From Candidatus Poseidoniaceae archaeon (GTDB lineage Archaea; Thermoplasmatota; Poseidoniia; Poseidoniales; Poseidoniaceae), in contig JAKMGM010000042.1 of NCBI GenBank assembly GCA_022424925.1, forward strand, positions 1 through 34,500: a stretch of DNA of 34,500 bases. The letters run 5' to 3'. The notes under the pieces are model-generated. The model searched no databases, was not told the origin of the DNA, and saw nothing but the letters and a program-made list of their open reading frames with translations. A program made the position numbers and the translations under genes. Below, one piece after another: positions 3-9,565 of this stretch; the stretch's first letter is position 1; every line of letters starts with the position of its first letter.

Positions 3-1220
3 GCCCTGGACCCTGCCCTGCGCCGGCCTGGACGATTTGACCGCGAAATCGAGATCGGTGTTCCTGACCGAGACGGGCGCGAAGAAATCATGGACGTCCA
101 CACACGCCAAATGCCAATTTCTGACGACTTTGAAATCAACTGGGTGCTGGACAACACCTACGGATTCGTAGGTGCAGACTTGGCAGCACTCGTTCGAGAA
201 GCTGCAATGCGAGCCCTTCGACGCTACCTGCCGGAAATTGACTTAGAAGAAGAAACCATTCCACCTGAAGTTCTTGAAAAGATGGAAGTCCGAATGGATG
301 ACTTCCGTCACGCCATCAAGGATGTTGAACCTTCAGCATTGCGAGAAATCTACGTTGAAATCCCTGAAGTGACATGGGACGAAGTCGGTGGACTTGAGGA
401 AGTCAAGGACCGTCTCAAGGAATCGGTTGAATGGCCACTAACCAAACCCGAATTGTTCGAACACTTCGGCATCAAACCCCCGAGAGGTATCGTACTCTTC
501 GGCGCGCCAGGTACCGGAAAAACACTGCTGGCCAAGGCGATTGCCAATGAGGCACAAGCCAACTTCATCAGTATCAAAGGCCCTGAGATGATTTCGAAGT
601 GGGTCGGCGAATCGGAACGAGGCATACGTGAGATTTTCAAGAAGGCGAAGCAATCGGCTCCGGCCATCATCTTCCTTGATGAATTTGAATCCATAGCAAG
701 CATGCGCTCATCCTCCAGTTCAGAGGGAAGCGATGTTGGGAACAGAGTCGTAAACCAACTCCTTGCGAGCATGGATGGTGTTGAATCGCTCGACGGTGTA
801 ATCATCGTAGCAGCGACCAATCGACCAGAAATGATTGACCCTGCATTGCTGCGAAGCGGCCGATTTGAGCGTGTTCTTCACGTACCACCACCGGATGCTG
901 GCGCTCGTGAAGTCATCTTCAAGATTCACAGCGAAGGCATGCCTCTGTCGAAGTTTTCACTCAAGGATATCATCGGCGGTTTGGACGGTTTCACCGGAGC
1001 AGATATCGAAGCGGTCTGCCGTGAAGCGGGTTTGATCTGTATGCGAGCCGGCAAAAAGAAGGTTACTAAGACCCACTTTGAAGAAGCCATTAAGCGAGTG
1101 CGCCCGACCGTCACCGCTGAAATGCTGACCTACTACCAAAAGATGGAAACCATGCTCACATCCGGACTTTCGAACATCAAACGCTCCAGAGATACCGGAT
1201 TTGGCATGGAATCAATGTGA
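3..1220 (+). CDS. CDC48/VAT-type AAA+ ATPase, 3' part (5' end outside window)
   Basis: The frame is open upstream of the ORF-track start: codons from nt 3 read [30 protein letters not shown], the D1 second-region-of-homology motif of CDC48. A complete D2 module follows: Walker A GAPGTGKT, Walker [27 protein letters not shown]. Confidence 0.95.
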
Positions 1221-1290
1221 GATGGGTTCCCGCATCGACGCATTGATGTGCTGCATCGATGTGGTTGAACTGTCGGTGGAGCGTGATACA

Positions 1291-1530
1291 ATGGCAGTCT
1301 TTGCTCGAGAAATCATTGGACGAAACGTCATCGACTCGCACAGCGTGCTCCTGGGCACGCTCCAAGACATCACTTTTGACAAACAGTCAGGCTCTCTATC
1401 CTCCATTCGTGTCAAGGTTGAGGCGGATATTGACCCAACGGCATTACCGTGGGAGATGGATGACGGTTTGATGCGAATTCCTGTCGAGGAAATCGCACGA
1501 ATCGCTTCCCGAATTCATCTCAAACGGTGA
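1291..1530 (+). CDS. PRC-barrel domain protein (~79 aa)
   Basis: ORF 1201..1530; the likely start is the internal ATG at 1291 (MAVFAREIIGRNVIDSHSVLLGTLQDITFDKQSGSL...). The pattern 'GxxVhDxxGxxLGxxxDhxhDxxxGxh' is PRC-barrel-like. Confidence 0.75.
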   Translation: MAVFAREIIGRNVIDSHSVLLGTLQDITFDKQSGSLSSIRVKVEADIDPTALPWEMDDGLMRIPVEEIARIASRIHLKR

Positions 1531-1648
1531 GGGGTCATCGCACACGCCCTTCATCATGCGAGGAGCATTTCTGGTCCACGTGATAACAACCTTCTAAACA
1601 CACTTGAACACGTGGATGTGTCGGAACAGTGCTCTACAAGGTGAAGCT

Positions 1649-3283
1649 ATGCTTGACGGACTCAATCTCAACTACCGCCGAATCGGCCTCCAAGCCGCTT
1701 TTTGGGCTGTAATGCTGATTTTATTGATGAGTATTTTAGTGAACTTTGTCAACATTTCGAACACCAATCAGCTGTCAGCATACGATGATGATTGGAATGA
1801 CATGTCCGCATTCCGACAAGACATCAAAGACATGGGCATTCAAACCAACTCACTTGTCAGCAGCCCATTGCTTCTTGCAGACATAGAAGACCCCCGTAAT
1901 ACGACCTACATTCTCGCAGGTGTTGAACGAGATACGCTTTCATTGCCGCAATTTGACAGCGACGGATTCATCACGATTGCTGCTGAAGACGGATATTCAC
2001 CCTCAGAAATCGATGCAATAGTCGAGTTTGTTGATGCTGGAGGCACTGCACTGGTACTGGACGACTATGGCTTTGCAGGCAGTATTGCGCAAGCCTACGG
2101 GGTTCGCTACACTGGATACCAACTCTTCGATACGACATACGTTCAAGAACTGGATTACAACTACATCTGGATGTGTGTCCAATCCACACCGTGTGGAATG
2201 AACGGCACCACCATCGATCCCGAGACGATATCGGTTCACGAACGATGGAGCGGCCAAAGCGGCGAAGGTACGCACCCATGCAATCGAATGAACGGTCAGT
2301 CGATGCCGCTCGAAGATGCAGGACTTTGTGCTCAACACTGGGTGGATGGAGAAATTCAGTACAACGCAACCTACCAAATGCTCCTCAACAACATCACGGC
2401 CCTCGAACTTATTCCTGGAGTGAGTGGCGCCCTCTCTGAAGTGTCTATTCGCGCCGTCACCAGCAACGAAGCAACCGTTGATGTCAACGGTGATGGAGAA
2501 ATATGGGTTGGCAATGAAATCAACTCAGAAACGCCTGATTTGTGGGGTCAATTTAACCTCAGCATCGAAGCATGTGCTCGGAAATCCTGCGACCCAAATG
2601 AAGGTGGTAAAATCGTGTTTATGGCCGATGGTTCAGCACTCATCAATGCAATTTACGACTATGAAGGGTTCAACGATGCGGAAAACCCACTGTATGGAAC
2701 CAACGACTGTGTAACAAACAACACCAAGTGCATTCCTGAAAACGACAATCGAAAATGGGCCATGGACTTCATCGCTGAAGCGCTGATGTCCAGTAAAATC
2801 GGAGAGGAAGGGCAGCCGTCGGAAAACGCAATGGTCATCTTCGATGAGTCTAGACACCCGCAAAATGCTCTCCTTGCAGATTCATACAACACCGTTTACT
2901 TCCTCTTGGTTTACTTCACCGGTGAAGGGCTGGCCATGTTGCTGTTGTTCCTCGGCTTGTTCATCGCTTTTGAGGCCGTCCTCATCAAGAAGCGAGACCC
3001 GGAGCCTTGGCGTCACGTTTTCAGTATCATCTACTATGGGTTTGGTGACGCCAACCGTTACACGTACTACTCGAAAACCGACAAAATTCGACAAGTCTTC
3101 CTGTCGAAAGTTCGGAATCAAAACGGTTTGTCACGAGAAGAATTTCATGCCATGCCCGCTCGTGAATTGGTCGCTCTCATCAACGACCCTGTACTGGCAA
3201 AGTTCGCTATTGAACCGGGTAAATATTCCCTTGAGCAAACTGTGGCTGTGGTCAAACGCATCAAAGCGTGGGGTAGAACCTGA
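1649..3283 (+). CDS. DUF4350-like (GldG/ABC-type auxiliary-like) membrane protein with a large extracytoplasmic domain
   Basis: ORF 1604..3283; the ATG at 1649 is preceded by AAGGTGA. N-terminal TM segment, 'YSPSEIDAIVEFVDAGGTALVLDDYGFAGSIAQAYG' (DUF4350-like), C-terminal TM segment. Immediately followed by a DUF58 gene, a known gene-neighbour pairing. Confidence 0.7.
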   Translation: MLDGLNLNYRRIGLQAAFWAVMLILLMSILVNFVNISNTNQLSAYDDDWNDMSAFRQDIKDMGIQTNSLVSSPLLLADIEDPRNTTYILAGVERDTLSLPQFDSDGFITIAAEDGYSPSEIDAIVEFVDAGGTALVLDDYGFAGSIAQAYGVRYTGYQLFDTTYVQELDYNYIWMCVQSTPCGMNGTTIDPETISVHERWSGQSGEGTHPCNRMNGQSMPLEDAGLCAQHWVDGEIQYNATYQMLLNNITALELIPGVSGALSEVSIRAVTSNEATVDVNGDGEIWVGNEINSETPDLWGQFNLSIEACARKSCDPNEGGKIVFMADGSALINAIYDYEGFNDAENPLYGTNDCVTNNTKCIPENDNRKWAMDFIAEALMSSKIGEEGQPSENAMVIFDESRHPQNALLADSYNTVYFLLVYFTGEGLAMLLLFLGLFIAFEAVLIKKRDPEPWRHVFSIIYYGFGDANRYTYYSKTDKIRQVFLSKVRNQNGLSREEFHAMPARELVALINDPVLAKFAIEPGKYSLEQTVAVVKRIKAWGRT

Positions 3284-3292
3284 GGCGGTATC

Positions 3293-4546
3293 ATGTGGAC
3301 ACGAAAAGCATCCTTTACCTTCACTGGAGGAATTGCGCTCATCCTGATTGGGATGATGATTGCGAATCTTCAGATGATGATTCTTGGCTTGACTTTCATT
3401 GCCTTCATCGTGGTGAACTCATGGATTTCAGGACACGGCGATGTCGAAGTTCAACGAACATTGTCTGCCGATAACCTGTACAAGGGCGACGACTTGTATG
3501 TCGAACTCTTGGTCACAAACCGTTCAAACCGCAACACACAGTTGCTGGAAGTGTACGACAATATTCCGCACGAGATGAAATTACGAAGCGGTCTCAACCA
3601 AATGCGACTCAATCTTAAACCCGGAGAAAGCGCTCGAATTCGTTACGTACTACGCTGCCCTCTTCGAGGTCACTTTTCCATTGGCCCCGTGTCACTGCGC
3701 TCCCGCAACACATTCAATTTGGGTGTCGAAGAAATGTTGGTTGACCACCACAGCGATATCGTAATCTTCCCCCAAATCAAAGAGGTCGAAGAAGCGTTCC
3801 TTCGCTCACGTACGCCAAAGATGTACACTGGAGCAACCACATTGAGAACGCCCGGTCAAGGCTCAGAATTCTACTCACTTCGCGAATACGTTCCCGGAGA
3901 CCCATTCAAGAACATCAACTGGAAGGCGTTTGCACGAACCGGTGATCTCATGGTCAACGAAAAGTGTCGAGATGCAGTAACTGACCTCTACATTCTCTTG
4001 GACAGCCGAGATATCGCTCGTATCGGTACGGTACTGAAGAATCCGCTGGAAATGGGAACAGTTTCCGCCGCAAGCCTTGCGGCCTTCTTCCTCAAGCGGA
4101 GAGATTCCGTCGCACTGGCCATTTTCGATGACAGCCTGGCCTATCTACCCCCGGATACCGGCGACAAGCAGTATTTCAAAATCCTCAGCGCACTCGCTGG
4201 AGTATCGCCGAAAGGAAAGATGCCGTTGCAGGCCGTGACCAACTCGCTGAGCGGTCGCTTCAGCAGGGGAAGTCCCGTCTTCATCATCTCCTCATGCGAA
4301 GGTGACGGTACTGTCCCTGCCGCAGTACGGGACTTGGTTGGACGAGGGCATGAAGTCACCGTTCTTTCACCATCAAGCATCGACTTCGAGCGTTTAGTGA
4401 GTCGAATTCCTCGTATGTCCTACGAAGTACTCAAGCTGGAACGGCAAAACCGACTCACTACGCTCGCAGGTTCAGGCGCTATGGTCATCGATTGGATGCC
4501 TGACATGGACTTGTCTCAAGCGCTCATGCAAGTGAGGGGGTACTAA
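3293..4546 (+). CDS. DUF58 domain-containing protein
   Basis: Two N-terminal TM segments, then 'GQGSEFYSLREYVPGDPFKNINWKAFARTGDLMVNEK', the hallmark DUF58 motif, and a vWA-like C-terminal region. Confidence 0.92.
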   Translation: MWTRKASFTFTGGIALILIGMMIANLQMMILGLTFIAFIVVNSWISGHGDVEVQRTLSADNLYKGDDLYVELLVTNRSNRNTQLLEVYDNIPHEMKLRSGLNQMRLNLKPGESARIRYVLRCPLRGHFSIGPVSLRSRNTFNLGVEEMLVDHHSDIVIFPQIKEVEEAFLRSRTPKMYTGATTLRTPGQGSEFYSLREYVPGDPFKNINWKAFARTGDLMVNEKCRDAVTDLYILLDSRDIARIGTVLKNPLEMGTVSAASLAAFFLKRRDSVALAIFDDSLAYLPPDTGDKQYFKILSALAGVSPKGKMPLQAVTNSLSGRFSRGSPVFIISSCEGDGTVPAAVRDLVGRGHEVTVLSPSSIDFERLVSRIPRMSYEVLKLERQNRLTTLAGSGAMVIDWMPDMDLSQALMQVRGY

Positions 4547-4547
4547 G

Positions 4548-5762
4548 ATGGCTGAAGATGTTGGACTGCAACGAGATGTCACGGTTACCGGTGAAGTCAG
4601 TCCCCGAACACTGCATTTGAAATTACTTCGAAAGCAGTGGCAAATCATCTCTCTACAAGTGATTGCTACAGTGGCTTTAGTTGGCATGTACTTGGAAGTT
4701 GTTTCAAACTATGTGGTCGGTTCAATCGACCACACCATGCTGTTTGACACCATTGAATTGCTCATCGGCGACCAACTACCAATTGGTGATTGGCTGACCG
4801 GTGAAGGTCGAAGCGGTCTTGCTCGTTTCTTTGTCCCACTCGTACTTGGACTGCTGGTTGGTGGCGGCATGGCGCTCTTGGCCTTCCAAACTCCGAAGAT
4901 TCAACAACGGGTTAAACTCGGATTCATCGTCACGCTTATCGTCGTCTTGATTGGGCAATTGATGCTGTCTTGGCTCACTGGAATGTTGTTTTCCTTCGAC
5001 CTTCGATTACCGAACTCAAGCGAATTGAGTACACTGGAATGGCCGCTGTTAATGATTCTCTCTATGATGATTTTGTTCCTCTACCTGTTACCGGTGATTA
5101 TGGGGGTTCGTGGAATTTGGGGCCTTTCCCGCCGCTCAATCGCATGGGCTATTGGGTTCACGCTGCTGTTTCTCGGCATCCATGCCATCCTTGCTTTCCC
5201 ACTCATCAACGGTCAGTTGGGTACGTACGGTGACTCTGTTAACGTGATTGGCGCTCAATTCAGTGACCCTACAATCGGTATCTTCGGTTTAATGTTGGTC
5301 AATGAACAACAGTTTGCACTCATCCTAATCGCAGTACTCATCATGGTTTTCCAAGAATCCTCATACGGCGTTATTCGGTACTTGGAGTACGCATACAGGC
5401 TTCCTGAATCGTGCAAGCGAGACCCGGAATATGTTCGACAGATGGACAATGTTCTCAACACACACCTGAAACACACGTTCGGTTTCCTCGGCCTCACCGG
5501 CGTTGCAACCATGATTGCGTTAGGCTTCCATACTGTCTTGTTAGGCTTTGTCGAAGACTCGACTGGAAGTCAATGGGCAGGTCAAATTTCTGAATCAATT
5601 GAACTCTCACTTACCTATGGATTGGTGATTTCCGCTGCCATGTTCTTGAGCATCATGGCACTACTACGCTTCTTCGTACCCTGGGAGCGCATTTGGGGAC
5701 TGATTTACTCACGCCGAAATGCAGATGCCACGCCAGCGGGCAAAGAAGTCGTTGAGATTTGA
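4548..5762 (+). CDS. Polytopic integral membrane protein of unknown function
   Basis: 404 aa with many hydrophobic segments; starts 1 nt after the DUF58 stop, suggesting co-transcription. Confidence 0.75.
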   Translation: MAEDVGLQRDVTVTGEVSPRTLHLKLLRKQWQIISLQVIATVALVGMYLEVVSNYVVGSIDHTMLFDTIELLIGDQLPIGDWLTGEGRSGLARFFVPLVLGLLVGGGMALLAFQTPKIQQRVKLGFIVTLIVVLIGQLMLSWLTGMLFSFDLRLPNSSELSTLEWPLLMILSMMILFLYLLPVIMGVRGIWGLSRRSIAWAIGFTLLFLGIHAILAFPLINGQLGTYGDSVNVIGAQFSDPTIGIFGLMLVNEQQFALILIAVLIMVFQESSYGVIRYLEYAYRLPESCKRDPEYVRQMDNVLNTHLKHTFGFLGLTGVATMIALGFHTVLLGFVEDSTGSQWAGQISESIELSLTYGLVISAAMFLSIMALLRFFVPWERIWGLIYSRRNADATPAGKEVVEI

Positions 5763-6005
5763 TTACGAATCGTTTCGCATCGATTGAATCACGCGGCCGA
5801 TGAGTTCAGCACACATCAGCAACAGCAAAGGCAAACCACACCAAGCAGCAACAGACCCAAGCACGCCACCCACGGCACTCTGAACGTCTGAATGCAGTAG
5901 CCATACGCCGAGGAAAACCAGAACGAGTAAACCACGTTCGATGAACAAAGGATAGCGTCTGCCTGGTGTTTCGGTTCGGTTCAAAAGCGTCGATGAATCG
6001 CTCAT
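5763..6005 (-). CDS. Small membrane protein (~80 aa), unknown function
   Basis: MSDSSTLLNRTETPGRRYPLFIERGLLVLVFLGVWLLHSDVQSAVGGVLGSVAAWCGLPLLLLMCAELIGRVIQSMRNDS: two hydrophobic segments, 9 nt downstream of the coiled-coil gene on the same strand. Confidence 0.6.
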   Translation of the reverse strand: MSDSSTLLNRTETPGRRYPLFIERGLLVLVFLGVWLLHSDVQSAVGGVLGSVAAWCGLPLLLLMCAELIGRVIQSMRNDS

Positions 6006-6014
6006 TCAAGCACC

Positions 6015-9000
6015 TCAGAAATCAAGATTTGACAACCGTGCTTCAAGCGCTGCTAGAGCAGGGTCAGTCGATCGCTCTGCAACCGGTTCCTTTCTTCGCT
6101 CCCAGGAAGCGTCAAGACGAGCGAGCTCGGCCTCCAACCGAGCCCTCTCATCGCTTTGTTCTGTTTCGCTTACTGCTCCGGGGCTGTTGAACATAGGTTC
6201 AGCATTCTCTTGGGGGGCATCCTCATCAATGGGTGTCGGCATGTTTTCCCATCCTGCTTCATCCACATCGGGGGCTTCCACTGGAGCATCCAATGAGACA
6301 GGAACCTGTCCGGTGAGTGATGACTCCATATCCATGAGCATATCGTGTTCAACTGGCGTTCGTTGTGCATCAGGTACGGATTGACGCTCGTAGGGGAGCA
6401 ATCCATCGCGTTGGAATTCCCACAGCATTCCACTTGGCACACCGTTTGCAAGCCCCGATGCGTCCAGTTGCGTGATGAGTTCTTCAAGAACTCGTGCTGT
6501 GTCTTCCAAAGCAATCGCTTCACCAGCATCCCGTTGGTCTGCCTCAAGATAGATGTCGTCAAGAGCCACTTGAATCAACTTCCGTGTTGCTTGAGCAATG
6601 CTCGGGAGTGCCTCTGGTCGTGTACAGTTGTTGAGCAAAGCATCAATCTCCTGTGGCGGAGCTCCAAGTCGAACCAGTTGCTCGAGAACATTACGAAGAC
6701 GGCGTAGCATGGTTATCGAACGGTCGAAATCTTCCAAAAGGTGTTCAAGGTCGATCACTACATGTCCTACAGTTTCTCCTAATTGGTGTTCAAGACGTTG
6801 CTGAACCGACCAGCGTGCAAGACCGCGGACGGCACCAGCAGTTTGCGGGACTTGACGTTCGAGAAGCGTCATCACTTCACTCGAAAGCAAATGTCGGGGG
6901 GTGGCTGCAACGTGGTCAACCGTCGATTGAATCACCTGCAATCCTCGCTCAACCGCGCGGTCAAGCAAGGTGACTGAGTAGCCAAGCGCTCGAGCATTCT
7001 CAAGCCGTTCAAGAACCGGCCCGAGTCCATCGAAGGTCGATGCATCATCAAGGAGGGCTTGCGCAAGAGGCTCTTCCGCCAAGCGTGCGCGGAGACGCTC
7101 AGCCTCTTGGATATCGGAAAGGGCTTCCTCATGTGCATGTGAAAGCGCTTCGGCACGTTCCACCAAAGAGACAAGTTCAGCCTCTGCATGGCCTCTTCGA
7201 GCACCTAAATCACCCAACTCGCGCAATGTTTGCCGGCGTTCAGTCATCAATTCACGCAACTCGGCCTGTACCTGCGCCTGTCGGGCTTCATCGGTAGCGA
7301 GTCGAGTACGGTCTTCTTCAGCTCGACGCCGAGCGGATTTCGCTTCTGCCTCAATCGATTCAAGTTCAGAGGTGCTCGAATGAATCTTGTCTTCCATGAG
7401 CATGGCTTCGGCTTGTGCCCGTGTGTGGCGTTCTCGTGTTGCTTCGACTTGCTCTTGAAGCACACGAAGCCGTCGCTCATCGTCATCAGACTGTTGTCGG
7501 ATCGTGGCAAGACGTTCGCTTCCTGCATGCAACTCAGCATTAAGTTCAGCCTCTTTGAGAGCCAATTCTTCTATTGAAGCACGAAGGGTTTCGCTGGAAT
7601 CTGCATGCCCGAGAGCCTTGGCCAGTTCAGCGGCGCGAACGCTCACTTGGTGTTCAAGTTCATTCACCCGCTTGACCAAGCGTTCAGCACGGTTTTCGGC
7701 TTGCTCTGCTGCAGCCCGTGATTCGGCTACATCGAGTTGAAGTGAATTCAGTGATGAATTGGACGATTCCACCTTGGTGACGAACTCTTGCCGTGATTCA
7801 GATGCTTCACGCGCCACGATTTGTGCTGCCTTTTTACCGGAAATCGCTTCATCGAGTCGACTCGCAAGTGCCGCCTTTTCCTTTTCCAAGTCATTGATTT
7901 GATGTTCTGCAGATTCCAACCTCCGGCGCAATCCGGCATCAACGGCCAGCGGCTGGGCTCCCTCAGAAGGCAAACCGCCTGCAACATCAGTCGTCTCAGA
8001 GAACGTTGCAGTGGTGCGATTCTTTCGCAATTGCTCCATGCCAATTTCAAAGCCAAACAATTCGTTGAGCTTGTTTTTGAGGTTCGCACGGCGACTTTCA
8101 GAACGCGTTCGAAGCGTGACGAGCAAATCGTGGAAGTCATCAAGTCGGAACTCATCGACAGTTCCAGAATCGCGGGATACGACCGTTCCCGCAGGTAGTC
8201 GGTGGAGTTTGAGTATTCGAGATGAATCGGTGAATGTGAGCATCGCTTCTTCCAAAGATTGGCCTTCTGGAGCAGAAATGGCAACCGGAACACCTCGGGA
8301 TAACACGACAGAAACAGAGGTAGAAGATTGTCCGGATTGAAGGTGGCCAGTGACCTCCTCAGCCACACCTGCTGAGAGCATTGAAAGAATGGCATCGGGT
8401 CCTCCTCTACCTTCTCGAAGTACGAAGCCCTCTGGCATTGGACCTCCCGATGCTCCAACCACGCCAAGTTCGCCCTCAAGAAGCGATGCGGTGGCTGAAA
8501 GCAAGCGAGCATGGTTGGTGTTTGCTTCGGTCCAAACGCCGAGAGAAACATCACCTGCTCGAGCAAGGAGAAGTGAGCCGCCTTCGTGATGCATAGTCCA
8601 GTGGCTCCCTCCAATAACAGCGTCGTCCTCAACGATGCTGATGTTCATCGCTTCAAGCGTGGAGTGTATCTCTCGGGCAAGCGTGTCCGCATCGTTGGGT
8701 AAATCACCGACACTGTCGATGAGCATGCCTTGGTCGATGGCAACAGCACCACGTACCGTTTCACGTTCGACAAGGGTTCGTAAGACTGCAGACAAATCTC
8801 GAGCGAGAAGACGAACAACTGCATCGCCTCTGGCCAATAGACCTTGGCGGTCTGCAGCGTGCTCAAACGCTTCTGGGAGAACCTCGGCAACACTGCCGAG
8901 CCCAGCGAGCGAATACTCGCCAGCAATGAAACGGGTGTTTTCTTTCGCTTCAAGTTCTTCAAGGCGTTCACGGGCCTCTTTGCCTGCGAGCAAAACCTTG

Positions 9001-9191
9001 CCTTTGCCCGATTCAGCAAGCCAACCTACCACGCGTCCAGCGCGCACCAACCGGTGACCTGCAGGCGTTTTTCGTCGCCCAACCCAGGTACTGATGACGC
9101 CGTGGTCAAACGGTTGGATAGAACCGTCTACGAGGCTGACTTGTTCTTCAATCGGGTTTCCTTCAGGTAGATTAAACACGGTATCACTCAC
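6015..9191 (-). CDS. Large coiled-coil protein with an N-terminal region resembling Roadblock/LC7 domains
   Basis: ORF 6015..9335; the preferred start is the GTG at 9191 (VSDTVFNLPEGNP), which overlaps the upstream gene's TGA (GTGA at 9191..9188). Long heptad-rich central region (LRRRLESAEHQINDLEKEKAALASRLDEAISGKKAAQIVAREASESRQEF...). N-terminal segments such as VRGAVAIDQGMLIDSVGDLP...GSLLLARAGDVSLGVWTEANTNHARLLSATASLLEGELG look LC7-like. Confidence 0.8.
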   Translation of the reverse strand: MSDTVFNLPEGNPIEEQVSLVDGSIQPFDHGVISTWVGRRKTPAGHRLVRAGRVVGWLAESGKGKVLLAGKEARERLEELEAKENTRFIAGEYSLAGLGSVAEVLPEAFEHAADRQGLLARGDAVVRLLARDLSAVLRTLVERETVRGAVAIDQGMLIDSVGDLPNDADTLAREIHSTLEAMNISIVEDDAVIGGSHWTMHHEGGSLLLARAGDVSLGVWTEANTNHARLLSATASLLEGELGVVGASGGPMPEGFVLREGRGGPDAILSMLSAGVAEEVTGHLQSGQSSTSVSVVLSRGVPVAISAPEGQSLEEAMLTFTDSSRILKLHRLPAGTVVSRDSGTVDEFRLDDFHDLLVTLRTRSESRRANLKNKLNELFGFEIGMEQLRKNRTTATFSETTDVAGGLPSEGAQPLAVDAGLRRRLESAEHQINDLEKEKAALASRLDEAISGKKAAQIVAREASESRQEFVTKVESSNSSLNSLQLDVAESRAAAEQAENRAERLVKRVNELEHQVSVRAAELAKALGHADSSETLRASIEELALKEAELNAELHAGSERLATIRQQSDDDERRLRVLQEQVEATRERHTRAQAEAMLMEDKIHSSTSELESIEAEAKSARRRAEEDRTRLATDEARQAQVQAELRELMTERRQTLRELGDLGARRGHAEAELVSLVERAEALSHAHEEALSDIQEAERLRARLAEEPLAQALLDDASTFDGLGPVLERLENARALGYSVTLLDRAVERGLQVIQSTVDHVAATPRHLLSSEVMTLLERQVPQTAGAVRGLARWSVQQRLEHQLGETVGHVVIDLEHLLEDFDRSITMLRRLRNVLEQLVRLGAPPQEIDALLNNCTRPEALPSIAQATRKLIQVALDDIYLEADQRDAGEAIALEDTARVLEELITQLDASGLANGVPSGMLWEFQRDGLLPYERQSVPDAQRTPVEHDMLMDMESSLTGQVPVSLDAPVEAPDVDEAGWENMPTPIDEDAPQENAEPMFNSPGAVSETEQSDERARLEAELARLDASWERRKEPVAERSTDPALAALEARLSNLDF

Positions 9192-9565
9192 ATTCGGGGG
9201 GTTGTCGCTAAGATGCGTCGGTCGCGGTCGAGGGCATGACGCCAACGCGCCAATCGGCCTCCATCTCCGCTCAGTACTACGATCCGGTTTGAGGCAACGA
9301 CATCGAGAATCATTCGTGATGAATGTTCGCACCACACTTCATACACTTGGCCTAAGCCGAGTGCGTGGCTTGTTTCCTGAGCGACATTCATCATTTCAAC
9401 CGCTTGATCTACGGGTGCAAAAATCCCTTCTTCACCAACGCTGGCGAGGAGTTGACCAGTCCCGTCGAGAAGCATTGCATGATTGACGCCATCGAGACGG
9501 CATAATCCTGCTAATGCGCGTTGCAACATGGTTCTCAAACAATCGGTCAGTGCTGTGGCCTTCAA
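9188..9565 (-). CDS. Roadblock/LC7-like domain protein (start may be internal, ATG near 9529)
   Basis: MLQRALAGLCRLDGVNHAMLLDGTGQLLASVGEEG...ILDVVASNRIVVLSGDGGRLARWRHALDRDRR resembles the LC7 pattern 'L..L..hdGV.gahlhd.dG.hLAS...hhhl..dg.h.hLR'. Stop overlaps the start of the downstream coiled-coil gene. Confidence 0.65.
   Translation of the reverse strand: MKATALTDCLRTMLQRALAGLCRLDGVNHAMLLDGTGQLLASVGEEGIFAPVDQAVEMMNVAQETSHALGLGQVYEVWCEHSSRMILDVVASNRIVVLSGDGGRLARWRHALDRDRRILATTPRM

Follow-up and report, generated by a model that had tools for sequence, protein, structure and literature searches.

Roadblock proteins are dimeric platforms best known for serving small GTPases, and their occurrence beside a very long protein in an archaeal genome raises the question of what such a platform might work with there. 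Here, we followed up three minus-strand open reading frames in the window (the whole 34,500-nucleotide stretch of DNA that was analysed, contig C15 of an incomplete, 85% complete Poseidoniales genome), and named them TM80 (5763-6005), GIANT (6015-9191), and ROBL1 (9188-9565). The original prediction, made from the letters alone, took these for a three-gene unit encoding a Roadblock-like protein, a ~1058-aa protein with an LC7-like N-terminal region and a coiled coil, and a small protein with two hydrophobic segments, together a membrane-associated scaffold using Roadblock domains. The 4-nt GTGA overlap and the 9-nt gap that it described between the frames are both read directly in the sequence, while the start of its first gene had to be moved, because orthologues of ROBL1 begin with MLQR, which places the start at ATG 9529 and gives a protein of 113 aa rather than 125 (Table 1). 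A search of the open-licence literature found nothing on GIANT in Marine Group II (MGII) archaea, a group described as uncultured (PMC6864105). The locus could give work on these abundant ocean archaea a definite starting point in a protein that is as yet uncharacterised.

Table 1 Features of the locus, with positions counted from the first letter of the window
Feature	Positions	Strand	Description
ROBL1	9188..9529	-	113-aa single-domain Roadblock/LC7 protein by profile; frame open to 9565, start at ATG 9529
GIANT	6015..9191	-	1058 aa: alpha/beta segment, LC7, alpha/beta segment, coiled coil, helical domain, variable tail (predicted; alignment of orthologues)
GIANT residues 12-116	8844..9158	-	small alpha/beta segment (AF2 model); no convincing Pfam match
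GIANT residues 133-240	8472..8795	-	predicted Roadblock/LC7 domain (AF2, Foldseek, PDB profile matches, Pfam in GIANT of four other genomes)
GIANT residues 256-360	8112..8426	-	second alpha/beta segment (AF2 model)
GIANT residues 440-700	7092..7874	-	coiled coil; 18 orthologues show neither proline nor indel here; hydrophobic residues recur with a period of mostly ~3.5
GIANT residues 700-945	6357..7094	-	modelled as all-helical; best conserved domain of GIANT, with a column majority of 79% on average
GIANT residues 946-1058	6018..6356	-	variable tail with a conserved short motif at its end
TM80	5763..6005	-	80-aa protein with two hydrophobic segments; adjoins the pair, separable from ROBL1-GIANT

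Domain architecture of ROBL1 and GIANT

Profile searches bear out the Roadblock-like character proposed for the first protein. Matches of ROBL1 to Pfam Robl_LC7 (E 5e-4 to 7.5e-4, 19.6-20.1 bits) lie under the curated cut-off of 23, which is passed by one orthologue, that of genome G041, together with a neighbouring stretch. Searched against the PDB, a profile of 19 orthologues matched 11 chains at E <= 10 (best 5.7e-6), nearly all of them named Roadblock, MglB, or MglC, and every one either bearing a Roadblock-family name or being a known Roadblock fold; a profile of 51 closer orthologues gave weaker matches, with some unrelated chains among them. The gene is under purifying selection (dN/dS 0.08 where dS is unsaturated). 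Judged from these sequence comparisons, ROBL1 is a genuine Roadblock/LC7 protein.

For GIANT, profile HMMs, AF2 modelling, and Foldseek agree on the LC7-like N-terminal region that had been suspected. The AF2 model of the N-terminal part (mean pLDDT 79) places a helix, two strands, a helix, three strands, and a final helix, i.e., the LC7 order, at residues 133-240, and the 50 Foldseek matches listed for this domain all come from the Roadblock family or from LAMTOR complexes (E 1.8e-6 to 4.1e-5, probability 1.00), including LAMTOR, Asgard Roadblock, and MglB proteins. Further, the N-terminal profile matched 8 PDB chains at E <= 10, which are Roadblock/LC7 proteins or cvnB5 (best E 0.041, residues ~126-230), Pfam Robl_LC7 matched within GIANT of four other genomes (G044, G035, G059, and G029; E 0.008-0.09), and hhalign aligned the ROBL1 profile to the GIANT-LC7 profile weakly over nearly the full domain (E 0.0026). 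Purifying selection acts on the LC7 part (dN/dS 0.04 where dS is unsaturated) and also on the part at residues 250-395, with dS saturated in the remaining parts. By prediction, then, GIANT carries one LC7 domain, at ~133-240, between two small alpha/beta segments. The second of these segments (256-360) had no LC7 or other convincing match among PDB sequences, and homology between the two was not detected; a possible resemblance of the two to PATAN/DUF4388 found no support in Pfam matches.

The "very long heptad-rich coiled coil" of the original prediction is present as a long coiled coil, but it takes up only ~260 residues (440-700) rather than the greater part of GIANT; after it come a helical domain of 245 residues and a poorly conserved tail. 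If continuous, it would be ~39 nm long. The helical domain is modelled as all-helical (pLDDT 75); with this modest model, no PDB match to its fold was found with E <= 0.001, and no convincing sequence relatives were found in the PDB.

Distribution of the pair and its separation from TM80

Our sample comprised 60 Poseidoniales genomes, 30 from the family of the window (Poseidoniaceae) and 30 from Thalassarchaeaceae, of which 36 encode GIANT: 30/30 Poseidoniaceae and 6/30 Thalassarchaeaceae, the latter belonging to genera g11, g13, and g15. When 147 genomes from across the phylum were searched with a GIANT profile, only members of the order matched. In public genomes, most close relatives of GIANT carry the label 'Candidatus Poseidoniaceae' or Poseidoniales/Euryarchaeota, which corresponds to Marine Group IIa (MGIIa). 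ROBL1 adjoins GIANT wherever upstream sequence could be seen, while in 20 genomes without GIANT the flanking genes are retained and both ROBL1 and GIANT are cleanly absent from the same site. In a four-gene tree with an arbitrary root, g11, g13, and g15 grouped apart from the GIANT-lacking genera of Thalassarchaeaceae, so that one loss suffices to explain the pattern.

TM80 does have the two hydrophobic segments ascribed to it. It is, however, no obligatory partner, since 18 of the 20 genomes that lack ROBL1 and GIANT but keep the flanking genes retain it, and G045 showed no TM80 frame although it carries the ROBL1-GIANT pair; the three genes thus form no obligatory unit. Membrane association is not supported either, as TM80 and the pair each occur without the other and no membrane segment is predicted in ROBL1 or GIANT. 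A scaffold using Roadblock domains remains the best reading.

Other features of these loci are worth recording. Positions 90-5762 of the window encode a Cdc48-like AAA protein, DUF4350 and DUF58 proteins, and a 404-aa membrane protein, a block that adjoins the GIANT site order-wide and is also kept in genomes without GIANT. Two nearly identical GIANT loci occur in G030 (on C8 and C4; L050 and L051), which may reflect a strain mixture or a duplication. On the MG-II chromosome CM001443.1 (L149; also L036), GIANT is split in two frames, with a single open frame in close relatives. Finally, contig PAYR01000017.1 (L205), labelled Flavobacteriales, has a GIANT of the Poseidoniaceae type, and that bin is therefore probably mislabelled or mixed.

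Ras-like GTPases, a second Roadblock gene, and KaiC-like ATPases

The original prediction remarked that no GTPase lies in the window, and this extends to whole genomes: two Pfam models, for Roc and Arf GTPases, matched in 0/60 Poseidoniales genomes at E 0.001, a search that a very divergent GTPase could escape, while the same searches matched 11 and 12 of 14 control genomes, respectively. Given these results, a GTPase-activating role of the MglB kind is unlikely, and the pair probably acts as a scaffold, not as a usual GTPase regulator. Ragulator (LAMTOR) and the Roadblock proteins of Asgard archaea share the LC7 fold, provide the best Foldseek matches of the GIANT domain, and resemble the present case in having several Roadblock proteins per genome, but they act with Rag or Rab-like GTPases, and no such GTPase was found in these genomes.

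A further small Roadblock gene, ROBL2, occupies a locus of its own, preceded by a GNAT gene and followed by a DUF7121 gene and one that we take, from our own sequence reading, to be PurP (loci G000:C43 (L236), L221, L222, L237-L246, L259-L263, and L265). A ROBL2 profile recognises copies in g3, g11, and g15, and the gene stands at its own locus in the GIANT-bearing genera examined, with the exception of g5, where an opposite-strand frame covers the site. In GIANT-lacking genomes, ROBL2 was missing from 9/9 loci examined, and its neighbours remain. The same locus (L242:4400-6577 and equivalents) also encodes a protein of 726 aa that has a poly(A)-polymerase-like nucleotidyltransferase domain; in Thalassarchaeaceae, the C-terminal part of this protein stands alone as one of ~320-350 aa.

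KaiC-like ATPases follow the same distribution as GIANT: a KaiC-like query matched in 36/36 genomes with GIANT and 0/24 without. The Pfam KaiC model matches in 60/60 genomes, with only one or two matches in those lacking GIANT; we read these as RadA (frames of 333-387 aa) and, where they lie next to archaellin genes in archaellin-bearing genera, as ArlH. A KaiC-like gene sits beside ROBL2 in g6, g11, g13, g15, and one g3 genome (G055), i.e., in some genera only, and none was seen beside ROBL1-GIANT. KaiC-like ATPases were reportedly proposed as archaeal signalling hubs in 2017; here, they are distributed as GIANT is, and any link to ROBL1-GIANT is putative. As the common pattern of GIANT, ROBL2, and KaiC-like genes can be explained by one loss branch, in a smaller-genome lineage, it amounts to approximately one event, and the shared distribution is no more than suggestive of a functional link. 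Separately, a conserved cluster at L275-L279 holds two further KaiC-like ATPases and a 194-aa protein; a type IV pilin gene belongs to the cluster in G017 and follows in L277.

Proposed role and alternative readings

Taken together, LC7 domains in both proteins, a coiled coil free of indels and prolines, gene adjacency, joint absence, and the lack of a Roc or Arf match lead us to favor, at a little short of even confidence, a Roadblock-headed scaffold formed by ROBL1 and GIANT that would work without a Ras-like GTPase and is possibly tied to KaiC-type ATPases. In such a scaffold, the LC7 domains of ROBL1 and GIANT would pair with each other, the coiled coil would dimerise to give a rod ~39 nm long, and the helical domain might dock to a fixed partner. 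The LC7 heads could then recruit an NTPase, or regulate one, with a member of the KaiC family as the likeliest candidate and perhaps a connection to a pilus-like surface machine. A bolder version, that the three LC7 domains of ROBL1, GIANT, and ROBL2 act with KaiC-type ATPases that replace the small GTPase in archaea, seems doubtful. If true, several archaeal Roadblock domains, one of them on a long rod and all without a detectable Ras-like GTPase, would mean that this fold works with a different partner.

An unlikely alternative is that ROBL1 and GIANT serve to organise or place the archaellum, e.g., as a polar-cap-like platform. Published work reports archaella for every MGIIa group and for some of MGIIb (PMC6336850, PMC6461757), and across our 60 genomes archaellin and GIANT occur together in 34, GIANT only in 2, archaellin only in 4, and neither in 20, such that archaellin is found in 34/36 genomes with GIANT and absent from 20/24 without it, a looser match to GIANT than that of the KaiC-like query. 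Type IV pilus loci of archaea also include Roadblock proteins (arCOG02603; PMC4858521), which are archaeal Roadblocks as those described here are. ROBL1-GIANT lies outside any pilus locus, and the archaellum sits at a different locus from the pair. Presence of GIANT does not strictly follow archaellin, the exceptions being two g13 genomes with GIANT and no archaellin and four genomes of g10 and g17 with the reverse, and no chemotaxis genes have been reported in the group (PMC6461757, PMC6864105). With exceptions in both directions, we rejected the archaellum as a sole explanation.

Somewhat less probable still is the structural cytoskeletal or envelope scaffold without an NTPase partner that was suggested at the outset. 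Both the fixed length of the long coiled coil and the strong conservation of the helical domain would suit it. Against it, no membrane segment is predicted in ROBL1 or GIANT, the gene for the membrane protein can occur apart from them, published work describes the two MGII clades alike as small cocci (PMC6864105), and the Roadblock domains would be left unexplained.

We regard it as very improbable that the pair regulates a Ras-like GTPase in the way that MglB does. The Roadblock fold, for which Foldseek matches include MglB and LAMTOR, speaks for this reading, and ROBL1 shares both the LC7 fold and the small single-domain form with the MglB/Roadblock GAP proteins of bacteria. MglB genes are, however, often coupled to an MglA-type GTPase (PMC4316618), while none was found here, Roc and Arf models that matched most control genomes matched none of the 60 at E 0.001, and GIANT has an additional coiled coil and helical domain. 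An SMC/Rad50-like chromosome organiser can be set aside as equally improbable, because GIANT has no Pfam ATPase head domain and the weak NCBIfam matches to SMC and Rad50 that hint at it lie in or around the coiled coil, far under the curated cut-offs.
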